Assembly: GCA_027057985.1 (NCBI GenBank)
Contig: JALUTJ010000250.1
Span: 1-12,698, forward strand
DNA from: Chromatiales bacterium
Lineage (GTDB): Bacteria; Pseudomonadota; Gammaproteobacteria; UBA6429; Thiohalophilaceae
DNA length: 12,698 bases
Reading direction: 5' to 3'
A program made the position numbers and the translations under genes. Below the pieces are notes generated by a model that saw only the letters and a list, made by a program, of their open reading frames with translations, had not been told where the DNA came from and did no database searches. Of this stretch, positions 1,933 through 12,698 are shown piece by piece; the stretch's first letter is position 1; each line of letters opens with the position of its first letter.

Positions 1933-3144
1933 TCAGTGATTATGTATTTCAAATCCGCCTTTTGCGATTTCAGACTGGATAAAAAAAGCGCCCGCAGTAA
2001 CAACCTTGCTGCCGGGTTTTATGCCTTCGATAACGGCTTTACCATCGATAATCTGCTTAACTTCAACTTCGACAGCCTTGAATTCACCTTCTTCTTCCTG
2101 CTGAACAAAAACCTGCCAGTCACCATCACTGCTGCGAAGTACTGCGGCCTCCGGTAACTGCAGAGCTTTGTTTTTGTTGCTGGTTGAAATAAGAGCGGTA
2201 ACAAACATACCTGCATGAAAACGATCCTTGCTATTATCCAGCTCCAGTCTTACTGCTGATGTGCGTGTGGTTTCATCAAGTGTGTGATGCAATTGAATCA
2301 CCTTTGCCGGATAACGTTCGTTATTTACCAGTACTTCAGCTGGGCTACCTATCTGTACCATGCCTGCAGTCTCAGGTGTGACACGTGCTTCAACCCACAT
2401 AGTTGATTCATCCGCAATAACCATTAGTTCATAGCCGGCATCGACAAATTCACCAACGATAAACTTGTCATGCAGGATACGGCCACTGATAGGTGATTTA
2501 AGCTCAAAGGTGCCATCTGCACTTCGTTTTTGCCCTAGCAGTTTCCTGATTTCAGAATCAGACATACCATAGGCTTTAACATTGGCAAAGGATTTCTGGA
2601 AATCAATTTTCGCGGAAAGATAGCGACGTTCTGAAACAACACGACGACCAAGCTTGCGTACCCGTTTCCATTCCTTGTCTGCCAGTAGTAATTGCCCCTG
2701 TGCTTCAGCCATCTCAACACTGGAAAGAGTTACCAGTGGCTGTTCTTTCTCTACCTTGTCTCCGAGCTTTGCATGTCGTTCTATAACCTGAGCATTGATA
2801 CGCGGGGTAATCTTGACAGTTCGATAGGCATTCAGTCTGACTTCACCTGGTGCCTTAACAGTTTGTGCTACTGGTACTGGTTGTAACAGGCTTACTTTAA
2901 TGCCAGCCGTTTTCATTTGTTCACTGCTGAGATGAATTGTACCCGGCGCTTCTTCATGGCCGCCATGGCCTTCGCCTTCATCATGACCTTTACCTTCGTC
3001 ATGATCACCATGTTCTTCTTTAGCACCGTGATCATCATGTTTTTCTGCTGTCGCATGTTCAGCAGTTTTTCCTGGGCTTTCTGTTTCCTGGCCGCAGGCA
3101 GTTAAAGCTAATGTGGTTAATAGAATAAATATATAACGTGACAT
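1933..3144 (-). CDS. Periplasmic adaptor (membrane fusion) lipoprotein of RND metal efflux, CzcB/CusB type
   Basis: Links the RND pump to the outer-membrane channel. At 403 aa it has normal family length. It begins with a lipoprotein signal (MSRYIFILLTTLALTACG, lipobox LTAC, Cys17). A highly charged His/Asp/Glu-rich segment follows at about residues 28-65, with 8 histidines, and probably binds metal ions. The fold then follows the family order: APGEVRLNAYRTVKITPRI (first half of the lipoyl/barrel-sandwich domain), a helical hairpin at about 125-185, SPISGRILHDKFIVGEFVDAG (second lipoyl half), a beta-barrel with MWVEARV, and a membrane-proximal domain ending in HNH. The gene lies 4 bp after the outer-membrane factor gene and 8 bp before the pump gene, so it is part of one transcript. 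A short His-rich region in CzcB-type adaptors is known, but the metal is not determined by the sequence. Confidence 0.93.
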   Translation of the reverse strand: MSRYIFILLTTLALTACGQETESPGKTAEHATAEKHDDHGAKEEHGDHDEGKGHDEGEGHGGHEEAPGTIHLSSEQMKTAGIKVSLLQPVPVAQTVKAPGEVRLNAYRTVKITPRINAQVIERHAKLGDKVEKEQPLVTLSSVEMAEAQGQLLLADKEWKRVRKLGRRVVSERRYLSAKIDFQKSFANVKAYGMSDSEIRKLLGQKRSADGTFELKSPISGRILHDKFIVGEFVDAGYELMVIADESTMWVEARVTPETAGMVQIGSPAEVLVNNERYPAKVIQLHHTLDETTRTSAVRLELDNSKDRFHAGMFVTALISTSNKNKALQLPEAAVLRSSDGDWQVFVQQEEEGEFKAVEVEVKQIIDGKAVIEGIKPGSKVVTAGAFFIQSEIAKGGFEIHNH

Positions 3145-3148
3145 AGTC

Positions 3149-4438
3149 TTAATTCCTTATCTCTTTAATTTGCAGCCAGTTTTCAACCTGGGAGGTTGCC
3201 ATTAATAAATCCAGCCAGCTTTTGAGCATGGTTACCTGGAGTTCGATGCCCGCAGACTGGGTATCCAGGGTCTGTTTAATCTGTACCAGGTAGTCAGTTG
3301 TACTCATATCCCCTGAACGCCATAGTCGCTTGAGCAGTGATAACTGACGTTTAATACTTTTTCGTCCTGATTTTTTCCACTGCTGCCAGGCATTAAGGGT
3401 GAGGGCATAGTGCTGACTTCGACTGATGATATCGCGGCGAATATTTCGCATACCCTGTTGCGCAAGTTGCTGGGTGCGGGTGTATTGTTGTGCGGCGGCG
3501 TCGATTTCAGCGCTATAACTATTACGTATATTAAGCGGGATGGTCAGAGTGAGTCCGACAAGATTCTCATTGCCTTCCTTGCCACCACGAAGAGCAACTG
3601 TAGGATCGGCGCTGGCTTCACTACGACGCAGCTCAACGGTCTGTTTTGCAGCGGCAACATCTGCAGTAAGTCTTATCATATCCGGTAATTGCTGTAGAAA
3701 AGCATTATCCTGGTAAGGTACTTTTAGTTGCTGATAGTTAATCTGCAGAAAGTCCTGTTGTTCCAGTTCAGCAGGAATCGAGCCAAACAGGGCATAGACA
3801 TTTTGCTGTGCCTGGTTGAACTCTGATTCAATATTGGCGTTGTCAATGATTGCTTCATTATAAGCAAGCTGGGCAAGATCCATCTCTACCTGGCTGATAT
3901 CGCCAGTATTATATTTATCAGCAGCAACCTGGTAGAAACTTTTCATCAATGCCAGGCGTTGCTTTGATAATGTAGCCTGATGCTGCATGGCTTTATATGT
4001 GCCGGCGGTCAATAGCAGGTCCGCCATCAGTTGCTGACTCTGTTGTCTGAAGTCGGCCTGTGCTGCTTCAATATTGTAGCGGGCAATCAGGGTTTTAACG
4101 CCCTGCTGATCACCCCAGTCAATCGTCTGGCTGATACCGATAGTCGAGGTTTGTACCGAAGTTTTCTCACTGTCGATTTCGAGTTCCGGGTTGTATATAG
4201 CCTTGCTTGCCGCCTCATACTCAGACTGTACAGCTTTTAACTGAGCCTGGGCTGCAATATAGCGTGGATGGTTCTGCAGCTGACGATAGATTAACTCGCT
4301 CAGTGAGCTATTAGCTGGCTGAAGCGTAATCGGGTTTGTCTCTTTTGCAACAGACACGTTAATCAGCCCTGTTAGCAACAGGACGGAGATAACCACGGTG
4401 TATACAAAAGAGGTTTTATACTGATTTAATACAATCAT
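3149..4438 (-). CDS. Outer-membrane efflux channel, TolC/CzcC family
   Basis: Outer-membrane factor that completes the tripartite metal efflux complex. It has 429 aa, the usual CzcC length. The N-terminus has a charged start, a hydrophobic core (about residues 11-28) and a likely signal peptidase site after VSVA. The body is helical and alanine/glutamine-rich with the two-fold repeat expected of OEP domains: LIYRQLQNHPRYIAAQAQLKAVQSEYEAA opens the first repeat, and VGLTLTIPLNIRN, in the second half, is the typical beta-strand stretch. YNPELEIDSEK followed by GISQTIDWGDQQG is the CzcC-like first strand. The start at 4438 has only a weak AAAGG ribosome site about 10 bp upstream. It is separated by 114 bp from the czcI-position gene upstream and by 4 bp from the adaptor gene downstream. 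Confidence 0.92.
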   Translation of the reverse strand: MIVLNQYKTSFVYTVVISVLLLTGLINVSVAKETNPITLQPANSSLSELIYRQLQNHPRYIAAQAQLKAVQSEYEAASKAIYNPELEIDSEKTSVQTSTIGISQTIDWGDQQGVKTLIARYNIEAAQADFRQQSQQLMADLLLTAGTYKAMQHQATLSKQRLALMKSFYQVAADKYNTGDISQVEMDLAQLAYNEAIIDNANIESEFNQAQQNVYALFGSIPAELEQQDFLQINYQQLKVPYQDNAFLQQLPDMIRLTADVAAAKQTVELRRSEASADPTVALRGGKEGNENLVGLTLTIPLNIRNSYSAEIDAAAQQYTRTQQLAQQGMRNIRRDIISRSQHYALTLNAWQQWKKSGRKSIKRQLSLLKRLWRSGDMSTTDYLVQIKQTLDTQSAGIELQVTMLKSWLDLLMATSQVENWLQIKEIRN

Positions 4439-4552: not shown

Positions 4553-4957
4553 TTATACGATCGGGAAGGCAGGTGGTGCCCTGAGAGGGGGTGAAAAATA
4601 CTGATAAGAGGATTTTAACCGATAGTGAAGAGGGGCTGACAGATGGATCAGCTTCCCCTGATATTCAGGTAATGGCAGACTTAGTGTAGAAAGAATAGCC
4701 AGTGGTAAAAATGCGTTATTTGGCTGTTTGTCCGGCGCAGCCTTGGTATAGACAATGGCATCTTCTTCACATAGCGAATCAATTTTTTCTTTGTTTTTGA
4801 AATGTAAATCAGCGACATGGCTATGACCATTCAGCTGCGGGTCATTTTTGTGGTGCAGGTGGAAGTGCACCGGTATCAGGGTAACGACCAGGATGGCCAG
4901 AGAAATGACCCATGATACTGATTTTAAAAGACTTTTTTGTTTGCGTAGCAAAAACAT
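4553..4957 (-). CDS. Small His-rich membrane-anchored protein at the czcI position of the efflux operon
   Basis: A 134-aa protein with no certain family assignment. An uncleaved-looking hydrophobic segment (about residues 13-30) is followed directly by HFHLHH and further histidines at 45, 47 and 52, with one cysteine at 63. A second hydrophobic stretch lies at about 82-97, and the C-terminus is proline-rich (PPLRAPPAFP). Similar short periplasmic proteins with a His-containing middle and a C-terminal RAPP/RPP motif precede czcC in many heavy-metal RND operons (CzcI, and DUF2946-type proteins). Position and general architecture fit that group, but the sequence does not let me assign it firmly. 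It is probably the first gene of the efflux transcript and may bind metal or tune induction. No ribosome site precedes the ATG and no other Met is available nearby, so the mRNA may be leaderless. Confidence 0.72.
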   Translation of the reverse strand: MFLLRKQKSLLKSVSWVISLAILVVTLIPVHFHLHHKNDPQLNGHSHVADLHFKNKEKIDSLCEEDAIVYTKAAPDKQPNNAFLPLAILSTLSLPLPEYQGKLIHLSAPLHYRLKSSYQYFSPPLRAPPAFPIV

Positions 4958-8339: not shown

Positions 8340-9956
8340 TCACACTAATGCATTTGCAGTATTACTGCAGCAGGTTTCCCAGCTATTTGCCTGTGCCAGT
8401 GCCCAGTCCTGTTTCCAGCCATCAGGAACTGTAGACTCATCCAGCAAGCAGCCGTCGTCAATCCAGTGATACAGTTCGCTATAGGTTTTTACGGTTTCAT
8501 TGTTGATACGTCGCAGTATATGACAGGCCTTGACCTGTTCAGGCCTTTTTAGCCCCATACTGGTGACCATTTCCATCAGGCTGTGCAGGGTAGTGGCATG
8601 GTAGTGTGCTACCCGTTCTGCCTTATTCGGGATATCGAGCTGCCGGTAACGGGAAGGATCCTGCGTTGCGATCCCGGTAGGACAGGTGTTGGCATTGCAT
8701 TGCCTCGACTGTATGCAGCCGAGTGCGAACATCATGGCACGGGCAGAGTTGACCATGTCGGCACCCAGTGCCATGGCACGAAGAATATGAAAAGCCGACA
8801 ACATTTTACCCGAGGCGATTATGCGGATATGTTCGCGGATACCACAACCGGTGAGGGCATTATGGACAAAAGCCAGTGCATCACGCAGCGGTGTGCCAAC
8901 TGAGTTAGTTAATTCAACAGGGGCTGCACCGGTGCCGCCTTCACCGCCGTCAACGGTAATGAAGTCAGGATAGATGCCGGTTTCCAGCATCGCTTTACAG
9001 ATAGCCAGAAATTCACCACGATAACCGATACAGAGTTTAAAACCGACGGGTTTACCACCAGAGAGTTCACGCAATTGCCGGATAAATTTTAACAGCCCAA
9101 GTGGATTAGAAAAGGCAGTATGGGCAGGTGGGGATACTACATCCTGTCCCATGGGCACGTGTCGAATCTCGGCAATTTCTCTGGTCAGCTTGGAAGAAGG
9201 GAGAATACCACCATGTCCCGGCTTGGCACCCTGAGACAGTTTGATCTCGATCATTTTAACCTGATCACTATGGGCCTTTTCCTGAAAACGATCGGGATTA
9301 AAACCACCATGATCATTTCGACAACCAAAATAACCGGTACCAATTTGCCAGACGAGATCGCCACCGCCTGCTTTATGATAGGGACTAATACCACCTTCAC
9401 CGGTATTGTGATAAAAGCCACCACGTTTGGCGCCCGCATTGAGTGCATGAATGGCATTGCGACTGAGTGCACCATAGCTCATGGCAGATATATTTAAATA
9501 CGCAGCCGAGTAGGGCTGACGACATTGTGCATTCCCCACCGTGATACGAGGAATTGTATCCGGCATTGGTTCTGGAGAAAGTGAATGATTGGTCCACTCG
9601 TAACCGGTACGGTAAACATCAAACAGGGTACCAAAGGGACGGGTATCTCGTACGCCCTTGGCGCGTTGATAAACCAGGGATCGAAACTCGCGGTTAACCG
9701 GGATACCGTTAATATCGGATTCAACAAAATATTGTTGTATTTCGGGTCGGATCGATTCAAACAGGTAACGCAAACGACCAATAACAGGGAAAATACGAGG
9801 AATGGTGCTGCGCGTCTGTACCAGGTCATAGATACCAAGCAGAATCAGTGGCGCAATAATAATAAATGACCACCACAGCCATGGGTAGGATTGTGCAATC
9901 AGAATAATCAGTAATGGAACTGTGATAGAGAGGAAGAAAAAAAGTTTGCGAACCAT
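8340..9956 (-). CDS. Membrane-anchored FMN-binding glutamate-synthase-family protein
   Basis: Protein of 538 aa resembling the FMN-binding (alpha/beta barrel) domain of the glutamate synthase large subunit. It lacks the glutaminase and C-terminal beta-helix domains. Two hydrophobic segments (about residues 5-21 and 26-44) anchor the N-terminus in the membrane. Key family stretches are ISAMSYGALS (157-166), KPGHGG (245-250), ITVDGGEGGTGAAP (333-346) and the 3Fe-4S cysteines Cys414, Cys420 and Cys425 in the C-x5-C-x4-C spacing of GltB. It therefore probably carries FMN and an iron-sulfur cluster and acts as an oxidoreductase. The substrate of these stand-alone proteins is not established, so glutamate synthesis should not be assumed. 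An AAAGGA ribosome site lies 8 bp before the ATG. The merR gene ends 18 bp upstream, so the two are probably one operon. Confidence 0.9.
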   Translation of the reverse strand: MVRKLFFFLSITVPLLIILIAQSYPWLWWSFIIIAPLILLGIYDLVQTRSTIPRIFPVIGRLRYLFESIRPEIQQYFVESDINGIPVNREFRSLVYQRAKGVRDTRPFGTLFDVYRTGYEWTNHSLSPEPMPDTIPRITVGNAQCRQPYSAAYLNISAMSYGALSRNAIHALNAGAKRGGFYHNTGEGGISPYHKAGGGDLVWQIGTGYFGCRNDHGGFNPDRFQEKAHSDQVKMIEIKLSQGAKPGHGGILPSSKLTREIAEIRHVPMGQDVVSPPAHTAFSNPLGLLKFIRQLRELSGGKPVGFKLCIGYRGEFLAICKAMLETGIYPDFITVDGGEGGTGAAPVELTNSVGTPLRDALAFVHNALTGCGIREHIRIIASGKMLSAFHILRAMALGADMVNSARAMMFALGCIQSRQCNANTCPTGIATQDPSRYRQLDIPNKAERVAHYHATTLHSLMEMVTSMGLKRPEQVKACHILRRINNETVKTYSELYHWIDDGCLLDESTVPDGWKQDWALAQANSWETCCSNTANALV

Positions 9957-9974
9957 TGAGAAATCCTTTGTTTT

Positions 9975-10379
9975 TTATTTTTCTATCTTGCGGGCAAGTG
10001 TTTCGACAATAGGGCAGTCAGATGCTTCACCTGTAAGTTTGCAGGAAACGATCAGATCATCCAGGGTTTTATGCAAAAGTTGAAGATCTTCGATTTGCTG
10101 TTTAATTTGCTTTTGTTTTAATTCCGCCCGCTGCCGTACATCATCACAGTGACCACCACCAATATCAAGTAATTCCTGTATTTCATCGAGACGAAACCCA
10201 AGTTGTTGTGCACGTTTAATAAAACGAATGCGATCAATGGCAGAATCCGGATAAACCCGGTAGCCCTGTAAGGGGCGAGCAGGTTCTTCGAGAATACCAA
10301 TCCGCTGATAATAACGGACAGTTTCAACATTTACGCCAGCTTTTTTTGCCAGCAAGCCGATGGTAAGAGGTTTTCTCAA
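9975..10379 (-). CDS. merR: MerR-family regulator with the mercury-type cysteine triad
   Basis: Metal-responsive promoter-distorting activator/repressor of 134 aa. The N-terminal winged helix reads LTIGLLAKKAGVNVETVRYYQRIG (about residues 5-28), followed by the wing RPLQGYRVYP. A long dimerisation helix spans about 78-112. Cys78 (in GGGHC), Cys113 and Cys122 (C-x8-C) keep exactly the spacing of the three Hg(II) ligands Cys82, Cys117 and Cys126 of Tn501/Tn21 MerR, so Hg(II) or a similar soft metal is the predicted inducer. CueR, ZntR and PbrR have different ligand sets. The start is TTG at 10379: no ATG is available in frame, the N-terminus matches the family there, and AGAG lies 7 bp upstream. 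It is co-directional with the glutamate-synthase-like gene and divergent from the HMA-domain gene. No mer transport or reductase gene is present in the window. Confidence 0.88.
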   Translation of the reverse strand: MRKPLTIGLLAKKAGVNVETVRYYQRIGILEEPARPLQGYRVYPDSAIDRIRFIKRAQQLGFRLDEIQELLDIGGGHCDDVRQRAELKQKQIKQQIEDLQLLHKTLDDLIVSCKLTGEASDCPIVETLARKIEK

Positions 10380-10448
10380 AATAAACTCTAATGTAGTATT
10401 ATTATCAGAAGTAATGACTCTAATCTGTGGATAAAGTTCCCCTGAATT

Positions 10449-10477
10449 TTGCCAGATAACACTGAATTAAATAGTAT
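10449..10477 (+). promoter_or_regulatory. Candidate promoter of the HMA-domain gene
   Basis: TTGCCA (10449-10454), a 17-bp spacer and TAGTAT (10472-10477). An overlapping alternative pairs the same -35 with TATAGA (10475-10480) at a 20-bp spacing, the stretched geometry of MerR-controlled promoters. The spacer shows no obvious MerR dyad, so MerR control is not supported. Confidence 0.35.
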
Positions 10478-10522
10478 AGACATTCTCTACCAGGCATCAA
10501 TTTTAAAACAGCGAGTTAATTT

Positions 10523-11098
10523 ATGAAAACCCGGATACATGTAATTGCACTACTGCTCACAATGATTATTTATACCGTTTCCAGCCACGCTGAGAGTCAG
10601 ATATATCATTACCAGGCGAAAGTAGAGGGTATGGTATGTGCTTTTTGTGCCTATTCAGTTTCTAAAAAGCTGCGTGGTATTGAAGGTATAATTGCAGATA
10701 CTGTAACGGTCAGTCTTGAGCAAAACAAAGCTGAATTTAGTTCCCGTAAAAAAATCCCCGAGTCCAGCATACACAGGGTCTTTTCTGAATCTGGCTTTTC
10801 CCTGACGAACATACATTTTAATGCGTCTGAGAGTGTTAGACCTGCTCACAGACGTGACATATTACTTGATCTCAATGTCAATGTCTTCAATACCGAGCAA
10901 TTTGAAAGTGTTTTCAGATCAATTGGTAATATTGCAATAAATACCGGAGCCAGTCTTTTGATTGAAGCACCTCAGGCGCAGGAAGAAACGATTCTCAAGG
11001 CATTATTAATGGGAAGAAAGAAATCGGTTAATGTCGAGTTTAACCCGATTGATATCGAAAGTACGGCACATATTCAGTTGTACCAGTTGTTAGATTAA
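10523..11098 (+). CDS. Secreted HMA-domain (MxCxxC) metal-binding protein with uncharacterised C-terminal half
   Basis: A 191-aa periplasmic protein. It has a cleavable signal peptide (about residues 1-23, ending SSHA). The first domain (about 27-98) is a heavy-metal-associated ferredoxin-like fold with GMVCAFCAYSVSKKL, where Cys39 and Cys42 of the MxCxxC motif would hold a soft metal such as Hg(II), Cu(I) or Zn(II), as in MerP and CopZ. Residues 100-191 have no cysteines and no family I recognise. The order of predicted strands and helices (DILLDLNVNV, a helical middle, VNVEFNP) could be a second, degenerate domain of the same fold, but this is a guess. The start has only a weak GCGAG ribosome site. 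It is divergent from merR across 143 bp, which suggests but does not prove joint regulation. The IS element begins 37 bp after its stop. Confidence 0.85.
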   Translation: MKTRIHVIALLLTMIIYTVSSHAESQIYHYQAKVEGMVCAFCAYSVSKKLRGIEGIIADTVTVSLEQNKAEFSSRKKIPESSIHRVFSESGFSLTNIHFNASESVRPAHRRDILLDLNVNVFNTEQFESVFRSIGNIAINTGASLLIEAPQAQEETILKALLMGRKKSVNVEFNPIDIESTAHIQLYQLLD

Positions 11099-11135
11099 AT
11101 TATTTTAAAATCATCTAATATACTTATGTTTATTC

Positions 11136-11182: not shown

Positions 11183-12001
11183 TTATGCTGCTCTGTTTGC
11201 AAACGCCACAGGTGTCATATAATTCAGTGTGCTGTGTGGTCGTTCGTTGTTGTAGTGATAACACCACTTCTCAATGATATCTTTTGCCTCATCCAGGTTT
11301 CTGAACCAATGCTGATTCAGACACTCCAGACGAAATCTGCCATTCAGGCTTTCCACAAACGCATTTTGCGTCGGCTTGCCAGGCTGGATAAACGCCAGTT
11401 TGACACCCGATTCCTTTTGCCAGAAAAACATCGCCTTGCTGGTAAATTCTGTCCCGTTGTCACAGGTGATTTGATCAGGCGCTTGCCTGGCTTCGATAAG
11501 CTGATCCAGAAATCGAGCAACCTGGTTGCCTGAAATGGAAAACGCAACGTACTGACCAATCAGCTCTTTCGAATAGTCATCTTTGACATTGAGAATGCGA
11601 AAACGTCTGCCATTGCTGAGTTGGTCTGATACAAAATCCATTGACCAACGGATATCAGTTGCCACCGGTACTACCAGTGGCATGCGCGGCCGATCCAGCT
11701 TCTTCTTTTTACGCTGCCGCAACTGCAATTGTGCTTCACGGTAGAGCCTGTAGGTGCGTTTATGGTTGATGACCAGACCCTCGGACTTAAGCATACCGTG
11801 CAGCATGGGGCAACCCAGCGCCTTGTGTTTATTGGCGAGTTCCAGCAAACGTTTTATCAAAGGCGCGTCTTTTGAGGGAACGCACTTGTATCGGTATCCC
11901 GTACGGCTGATGCCTGCCAGTTCACAAGCCCTGCGCTCACTCAAGCGAAACTGCTTGATCATATGCGTAACCACGGGCTTCTTCGCAGCAGGCTTCACCA
12001 C
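11183..12001 (-). CDS. IS3-family transposase OrfB (DDE catalytic domain)
   Basis: Catalytic half of the IS3 transposase, 272 aa from the GTG at 12001. An HTH_21-like region is followed by an rve integrase core. The catalytic residues are Asp122 (RWSMDF), Asp181 (TCDNGTEF) and Glu217 (NAFVESLNGR), giving the DD(35)E spacing of the family. WCYHYNNERPHSTLNYMTP near the end is the standard C-terminal signature. The frame overlaps the end of orfA by 7 bp in the -1 register, so the active transposase is expected as an OrfAB fusion made by frameshifting. It may not be translated alone in quantity. Confidence 0.95.
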   Translation of the reverse strand: MVKPAAKKPVVTHMIKQFRLSERRACELAGISRTGYRYKCVPSKDAPLIKRLLELANKHKALGCPMLHGMLKSEGLVINHKRTYRLYREAQLQLRQRKKKKLDRPRMPLVVPVATDIRWSMDFVSDQLSNGRRFRILNVKDDYSKELIGQYVAFSISGNQVARFLDQLIEARQAPDQITCDNGTEFTSKAMFFWQKESGVKLAFIQPGKPTQNAFVESLNGRFRLECLNQHWFRNLDEAKDIIEKWCYHYNNERPHSTLNYMTPVAFANRAA

Positions 12002-12261
12002 TTTTTTGAAAGCACATCCTTCATCGCTTCTACCTCGAGCAGTTTATCTGCCAGCAGCTTCTTGAGTTTGGTGTTCTCTGCCTCCAGCTCCTTTAGTCGA
12101 CGGACTTCATTTACTTCCATTCCCGCATATTTGCTGCGCCAGTTGTAAAACGTACCGTTGGATATTCCCATCCTGCGGCAGATATCATCAACTTTGGCAC
12201 CGACTTCGTGTTCTTTAATAGCCTTGATGATTTGTTCTTCTTTGTATCGTTTGTTCTTCAT
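11995..12261 (-). CDS. IS3-family transposase OrfA (helix-turn-helix protein)
   Basis: DNA-binding half of the transposase, 88 aa. It has an HTH_Tnp_1 domain (DDICRRMGISNGTFYNWRSKY, about residues 25-45) and a leucine-zipper-like coiled coil at about 55-80 (LKELEAENTKLKKLLADKLL). The ATG at 12261 follows a GGAG ribosome site. It alone usually binds the ends and limits transposition, and the OrfAB fusion carries out the reaction. Confidence 0.94.
   Translation of the reverse strand: MKNKRYKEEQIIKAIKEHEVGAKVDDICRRMGISNGTFYNWRSKYAGMEVNEVRRLKELEAENTKLKKLLADKLLEVEAMKDVLSKKW
12001..12007 (-). promoter_or_regulatory. A AAA AAG slippery heptamer for -1 frameshifting
   Basis: In the orfA frame the minus strand reads tcA AAA AAG TGG TGA. 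Slipping back one base gives AAA AAA GTG GTG, which enters the orfB frame exactly at 12001. The heptamer is the classical IS3-family signal and lies 3 bases before the orfA stop codon. Confidence 0.8.
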
Positions 12262-12310: not shown

Positions 12311-12335
12311 GGTGCTAATTATGGGGGGAAGGTCA
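12310..12335 (-). repeat. Right terminal inverted repeat of the IS3-family element
   Basis: On the minus strand it begins TGACCTTCCCCCCATA and continues ATTAGCACCA. It is the partner of 11136-11160 and directly joins the broken HlyD-family gene. Confidence 0.85.
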
Positions 12336-12698
12336 CGGCATGCTGGTATGATTTACGCCGGGCAAGATACTTGGCATAGACATTTTTAAACAGTTCGGGG
12401 GCTTCCTGTGGCAACTTTTCAAACTTATCGCCATTCAGTTCTGCATCGATACTACGCAGCAGTATTTTTGAGTTTGCCAGCTCAAAGCGCAGTTTTTCAG
12501 TGTCTGCCTCAGAAAGTTGTGTGTCCATCAGCATGACGGTCTGACCTGCCTTTACCAGGTCGCCTTCTTTCACCAGTATCCGGGATATACGACCACTTCG
12601 AAAGGCTGAGCGATTTTTATGCGAGTTTTCGGAACAAGCTTGCCCTGGGCACGGGCAACAATATCTATATACGTGATCCTAATTCCACTCCACTTTAT
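12336..12698 (-). pseudogene. HlyD-family type I secretion adaptor fragment, frameshifted and cut by the IS
   Basis: Remnant of a periplasmic adaptor of an ABC-type (type I) protein secretion system. From the window edge one frame reads IDIVARAQGKLVPKTRIK then IAQPFE, the usual HlyD stretch after the membrane segment. The frame then meets a stop. A second frame continues the same protein as SGRISRILVKEGDLVKAGQ, MDTQLSEAD and a helical region ending YLARRKSYQHA at the IS border. The join needs one extra A near 12596-12599 (GAAGTGG where GAAAGTGG is expected), so a single base appears to be lost. The IS removes everything after about 120 residues. The apparent last residues VTFPP come from the IS end. 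The 5' part lies beyond the window. A sequencing error could explain the frameshift but not the IS truncation. Confidence 0.85.

Follow-up and report, generated by a model that had tools for sequence, protein, structure and literature searches.

The closest described system is the Tn501-type mer operon, whose regulator MerR has Cys82, Cys117 and Cys126 as Hg ligands according to the available part of PMC5027573. The accessible text of PMC1526738 describes proteobacterial MerR sites as palindromes of the type GTAC-N4-GTAC and places promoters with a spacer of 20 in a mixed type among the MerR promoters. In Synechocystis, the unlinked merR Slr0701 acts on a distant merA, as far as the sections of PMC6741143 at hand report. 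The locus studied here lies in a window of 12,698 nucleotides, which is the whole contig C250 of a draft genome of a Chromatiales bacterium (G000; 2.44 Mb in 539 contigs, 94.85% complete). In it, a merR gene stands between a gene for a glutamate-synthase-domain protein (Glt) and a divergent gene for an HMA protein. With moderate confidence we read the locus as part of a split mer regulon, in which the window MerR would be a mercury-type sensor acting in trans and the HMA protein would belong to an accessory island, and no role of Glt in the mercury response is implied.

Besides these three genes, the contig encodes a CusA/CzcA-type RND set on the reverse strand, which consists of a CusA/CzcA-family permease truncated at the contig end (2..1924), a periplasmic adaptor of CzcB/CusB type (1933..3144; profile matches) and an outer membrane protein (3149..4438; profile match). 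A His-rich ORF of 134 aa without Pfam or NCBIfam match lies upstream of this set (4553-4957), and a multicopper oxidase, a cytochrome c and a Crp/Fnr regulator are also encoded. A transposase pair (11183-12261), labelled IS3-like by eye, is located directly past the HMA gene, and an ORF beyond it (12319-12573) has a weak match to an HlyD-family adaptor (TIGR01843, 26.7 bits). The G+C content is 0.394 in 9960-11100 vs 0.451 in the whole window. The first-pass annotation of this DNA had described the three genes as standing in place of a mer operon, with no merT, merA or P-type ATPase. None of these turned up among the scanned ORFs of the window; in the same assembly, merT and merP are present on contig C454. 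No MerA above the TIGR02053 cut-off was found in the 94.85% complete draft, and 14 of 40 genomes of the order pass this cut-off. As a draft, the assembly may lack a further merR or a merA.

The merR gene (9975-10379, reverse strand) encodes a three-Cys regulator of the mercury type with 134 aa, whose TTG start gives the N-terminus MRKPLTIG, in agreement with its relatives. Its Cys78, Cys113 and Cys122, already noted for spacings of 35 and 9 as in Tn501, align to the Tn501 MerR cysteines (5crl, E 2.1e-30), and two mercury MerRs, 5crl and 4ua1, lead its PDB matches. The spacings by themselves are no proof of mercury; PbrR has the same ones. The profiles favour mercury as the ligand class, judged from sequence, with 149.8 bits for MerR (TIGR02051) vs 85.2 bits for CadR-PbrR. 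The former value is about 1 bit below the curated cut-off (150.85), and the MerR of L157, which adjoins merTPA, scores lower (141.7).

Of 40 genomes in the order, 23 have a MerR match at E 1e-30. For 11 of 22 homologues (the window left out), merT, merP, merC, merB or merA is located within flanks of about 1.5 kb, while among the other 11, four have genes of the barrel1 module described below and seven have neither; two of these seven loci, G020 and G031, have merT-merP 3.3-3.7 kb away. Three Cys at spacings of 35 and 8-10 were detected in 20 of the 22 by pattern and in one more by eye, the remaining one being cut by the contig. The tree of 30 MerR rows places the window protein in no starred set and as sister to the MerR of the merR-merC-merA locus of G035 (support 91/84), with a long branch (0.58 vs a median of 0.18) that might reflect drift and a lost function. 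It keeps its open reading frame, the three Cys and the DNA-binding part. By sequence, the window MerR belongs to the mercury clade, and the mercury type first proposed is supported by profile matches, structure matches and the mer-linked homologues.

To describe possible targets, we used two operator classes. Class A is the MerR-site palindrome common to many merT and merC promoters of the fetched loci, TTGACTCTGTAC-N4-GTACRGAGT, and class B is the ZntR-like operator with the consensus TTGACNTGGAGNNNACTCCAG. The matrices were built on 35 and 46 distinct sites, respectively, in overlapping loci, with some palindromes counted in reverse too; the training sites score 19-48 for class A (lowest 19.3) and not below 13.6 for class B. 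The merR/HMA intergenic region (10380..10522), from which local control had been proposed, contains neither class (best scores -11.2 for class A and -12.6 for class B), and this proposal is not upheld. The best scores of the whole window, 9.3 for class A (inside merR at 10279) and 6.5 for class B, are both below the lowest training site; the former is far below the training minimum, yet not nil.

Across the G000 assembly, only one class A site with up to 3 mismatches was found, and the backwards control of this search gave 0 matches. The site is perfect, lies at C454:1332-1359 ahead of merT-merP and carries the palindrome GTAC-N4-GTAC; the -35/-10 spacer is 20 by count in two measured sites, including this one. 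Here merP, merT and a gene for a CopZ-like iron-sulphur chaperone (NF047645 over cut-off; L130:165-3424) are divergent from Grx, CcdA and 2-Cys MerR genes, and the shared promoter region has both operator classes. In G003, a relative of the same genus, merR still occupies the slot between this operator and the divergent Grx gene. G000 has both the operator and Grx there but no merR, which supports a split regulon. The window and the C454 stretch are alike in tetranucleotide make-up (r 0.89).

At E up to 1e-3, G000 has two MerR matches, namely the window protein, which is the sole 3-Cys MerR found in the draft, and the 2-Cys regulator on C454. Because no other 3-Cys MerR was found, no operator is local and the sole operator is that of merTP on C454, the window MerR probably acts in trans. 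It would act at the C454 operator ahead of merT, merP and the CopZ-like gene, where it would hold a promoter with an overlong spacer and untwist it on Hg(II), as in the usual MerR mechanism. The 2-Cys MerR on C454 could also act on merTP, which counts against a split regulon.

The divergent gene (10523-11098, forward strand) encodes an HMA190-type protein of 191 aa, with an HMA domain containing GMVCAFC (C39, C42) and a cysteine-free second domain of about 80 residues. It matches PF00403 with 26.7 bits (cut-off 24.8), and its N-terminus is signal-like by eye. The HMA domain and CxxC are of the MerP kind, and the protein has no match to the MerP model TIGR02052 at E up to 0.001. An AlphaFold2 model built from 8 sequences (mean pLDDT 82.5, pTM 0.67) predicts beta-alpha-beta-beta-alpha-beta for domain 1 and beta-alpha-beta-alpha-beta-beta for domain 2; structure matches of the full protein are almost confined to residues 25-108, and no fold was found for the second domain. 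The protein is probably exported, with Hg(II) or a similar ion as its probable periplasmic ligand. Full-length relatives turned up in few genomes (7 of 369 in the class at E 1e-15, its own included, with a single-sequence query). The 8-row HMA190 alignment found 12 of 40 genomes of the order at E 1e-12, where near-full-length matches come only from G000, G033 (two copies), G035 and G060. In the order to which G328 belongs, it matched one of 4 genomes.

We summarized the neighbours of HMA190 at 10 loci other than the window. Each contains barrel1, nine have the small HMA protein HMA100 and a MerT-like gene, and five have a 3-Cys MerR, so that the linkage of a mercury-type MerR with an HMA protein recurs at 6 of 11 loci with the window included. 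An RND set occurs in two of the 10, G033 (53-74% identical to the window's proteins; beside a 3-Cys MerR and HMA190) and G096 (40-73%). Four of the 10 carry merA (G035, G328, G197 and G037). Because of this co-occurrence, HMA190 appears to be an accessory of a soft-metal island, often accompanying mer genes and not replacing them; with merTP elsewhere in G000 as well, the replacement of a mer operon that had been suggested is not supported. In the split regulon, the HMA protein would be the exported metal-binding accessory of this recurrent island. Glt is found in none of the 10, which gives no support to the three genes as a unit.

The island shows up as a recurrent module of barrel1, HMA100, MerT-like, (barrel2), thioredoxin-like, DsbD/CcdA-like, (metallo-beta-lactamase fold) and 2-Cys MerR genes, found at L204:9806-14626 and likewise from barrel1 to the 2-Cys MerR at L004:166-5588, L210:9899-14962 and L220:8602-13198. 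ZntR-like operators are located ahead of barrel1 or Grx, and the island regulator, with two Cys, scores best with the ZntR model (113.9, below the cut-off of 143). For the MerT-like protein of L204, neither Pfam nor NCBIfam gave a match, and for barrel2 Pfam gave none (E 0.001), while a MerT-like ORF of G000 (C252) matches the MerT family weakly, below cut-off. In plasmid searches, barrel1 and HMA190 gave no match and the MerT-like protein gave 6 records. We recognised no description of the barrel1 island in the literature searched.

Glt (8340-9956, reverse strand) is a protein of 538 aa with a hydrophobic N-terminus and a glutamate synthase domain (PF01645, E 9.3e-86). Its C-x5-C-x4-C, which we take to be a 3Fe-4S motif, aligns to an identical pattern in a glutamate synthase large chain of known structure, and no amidotransferase domain was matched in Pfam at E up to 0.001. 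The coordinates confirm that merR lies 18 bp upstream and codirectional, with the MxCxxC-type HMA gene divergent, as described before, and Glt may be read through from merR. To place this neighbourhood, 86 Glt loci were compared, comprising the best 80 of at least 583 confirmed stretches, five loci from G020, G021, G029, G033 and G048, and the window. Flanks are short (below 5 kb on one side in 29 of 86 and below 2 kb in 17 of 86), and because many contigs are short, missing mercury neighbours are partly due to assembly limits.

Mercury-related genes near Glt were found in 6 of the 86 (the window, L004, L005, L006, G020 and L013), and none was found in the other 80, again with the best 80 of at least 583 stretches included. 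The arrangements vary: Glt follows merR in the window, is divergent from barrel1 in L004 and L005, convergent with merP in L006 and G020, and ahead of a MerB-domain gene in L013. Thus, among the 85 other loci (best 80 of at least 583 stretches plus 5 genomes), five have a mercury-related gene and none has the merR/Glt/HMA triplet, so that its conservation is not supported in this set. By tblastn, MerR lies within 6 kb of Glt in 3 of the best 80 of at least 583 stretches (L004, L005 and L006, the last being the same contig as G031), and those of L004 and L005 are of the 2-Cys type. In L004, the segment 5585-6046 between barrel1 and Glt is rich in short repeats of the type AATAATAGGTACCAGAGACGTATT. 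In the Cycloclasticus symbiont locus L013 (7998-10258), whose Glt is a more distant relative, the MerB-domain gene (PF03243, 86.2 bits, below the NCBIfam MerB cut-offs) lies 26 bp past Glt, and no further mercury gene was seen in the vicinity.

Other metal-related matches were sorted likewise. MerA-profile matches lie near Glt in L008, L015, L068 and L075; those of L008 and L015 were rejected, as Pfam identifies them as disulphide oxidoreductases other than MerA that carry a VTT domain, and those of L068 and L075 are profile matches only (92-99 bits). RND-profile matches occur in eight loci, of which L046 has a true CusA/CzcA-type permease 4.7 kb away and the others are profile only. Neighbour clustering of 82 loci (L051, L053, L058 and L128 left out, with no ORF match) gave no constant partner of Glt.

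In the Glt tree (33 rows), the window, L004, L005, L006 and G020 fall in one clade of seven (support 99/97), and because these five mercury-linked loci share a supported clade, closeness to mercury genes is a tendency of one Glt lineage. The mercury label needed 2 changes, which 1 of 500 shuffles equalled, with near-copies among the rows and L013 unlabelled; with L013 labelled, one more change would be needed. As the L013 Glt adjoins a MerB-domain gene, the odds of a role for Glt are raised a little. A part of Glt in a mercury response, as suggested at first, thus finds some backing in its nearest relatives and in L013, and none as a fixed unit: the linkage of 6 in 86 (best 80 of at least 583 included) and the varied arrangements rule out a fixed partner of mercury genes. 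Glt is a widespread stand-alone gene, and as the neighbour of merR it probably belongs to no fixed unit. No Glt-merR link was recognised in the literature searched.

Several other readings were weighed. The original proposal of a separate soft-metal response, in which MerR would locally control Glt and the HMA gene and both would replace the transporter and the reductase, conflicts with a gap that lacks either operator class, with a triplet seen in no other locus examined (best 80 of at least 583 Glt stretches included) and with merTP and its operator elsewhere in the genome. We consider it quite unlikely, even with merR and Glt codirectional at 18 bp, the HMA gene divergent, no MerA above cut-off in the genome, and Glt near mercury genes in 6 of 86 loci (best 80 of at least 583 included), five of them in one clade of seven plus L013. 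The merR-HMA piece might instead be the leftover of a rearranged mercury island with its MerR out of use. The long branch, the adjoining transposase pair, the low G+C of 9960-11100 and the lack of a local operator agree with such a relic, but the protein keeps its reading frame, three Cys and DNA-binding part and the operator ahead of merTP is intact, and we hold this unlikely.

A sensor of a different soft metal (Pb or Cd, for example) serving the RND efflux genes of the contig appears most improbable. RND genes are present on the same contig and, in G033, beside a 3-Cys MerR and HMA190, and the Cys spacing is shared with PbrR. The MerR profile outscores CadR-PbrR, however, and the relatives lie in mer operons with MerR-type palindromes, following the consensus in the available text of PMC1526738. 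A reductase-free form of the split regulon is also conceivable: the displaced MerR would drive merTP and the CopZ-like chaperone in trans, HMA190 and the linked RND pump would bind and expel the ion with no reduction, and Glt would have been recruited time and again as a redox partner for mercury genes (merTP, merR and the MerB-domain gene). This combination seems to us very unlikely.

In conclusion, the odd triplet becomes a sharp question, namely whether a merR parted from its operator still runs mercury transport. A recurrent, mostly unannotated set of barrel, small HMA, MerT-like, thiol-redox and 2-Cys MerR genes accompanies mer genes in Gammaproteobacteria, and the barrel1 set may deal with soft metals whether or not MerA is present. 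Besides, one flavoenzyme lineage is repeatedly close to mercury genes. The main value lies in a split regulon that can be put to the test and in an island that recurs with little annotation.

Compared with known systems, Glt shares the synthase domain and C-x5-C-x4-C with the FMN-binding glutamate synthase family, the usual label of its plasmid homologues among the matches listed, but it adjoins merR, and it differs from the glutamate synthase large chain in having no amidotransferase domain match. HMA190 resembles MerP/CopZ-type proteins in HMA fold and CxxC, with the MerP structures 1afi and 1osd among its matches, whereas its cysteine-free second domain and the lack of a TIGR02052 match set it apart. 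Relative to the Tn501-type mer operon, the window merR is apart from its operator with no merT, merP or merC beside it, the spacer in G000 is 20 and not 19, and no MerA was found; the three Cys at 35 and 9, the same fold by sequence and the merT operator with GTAC-N4-GTAC are shared. Synechocystis Slr0701, within the available text on it, differs in that its target is merA and its merR has its own site, while in G000 the target would be merTP and no site precedes merR; the two are alike in a merR that lies far from the gene it controls.
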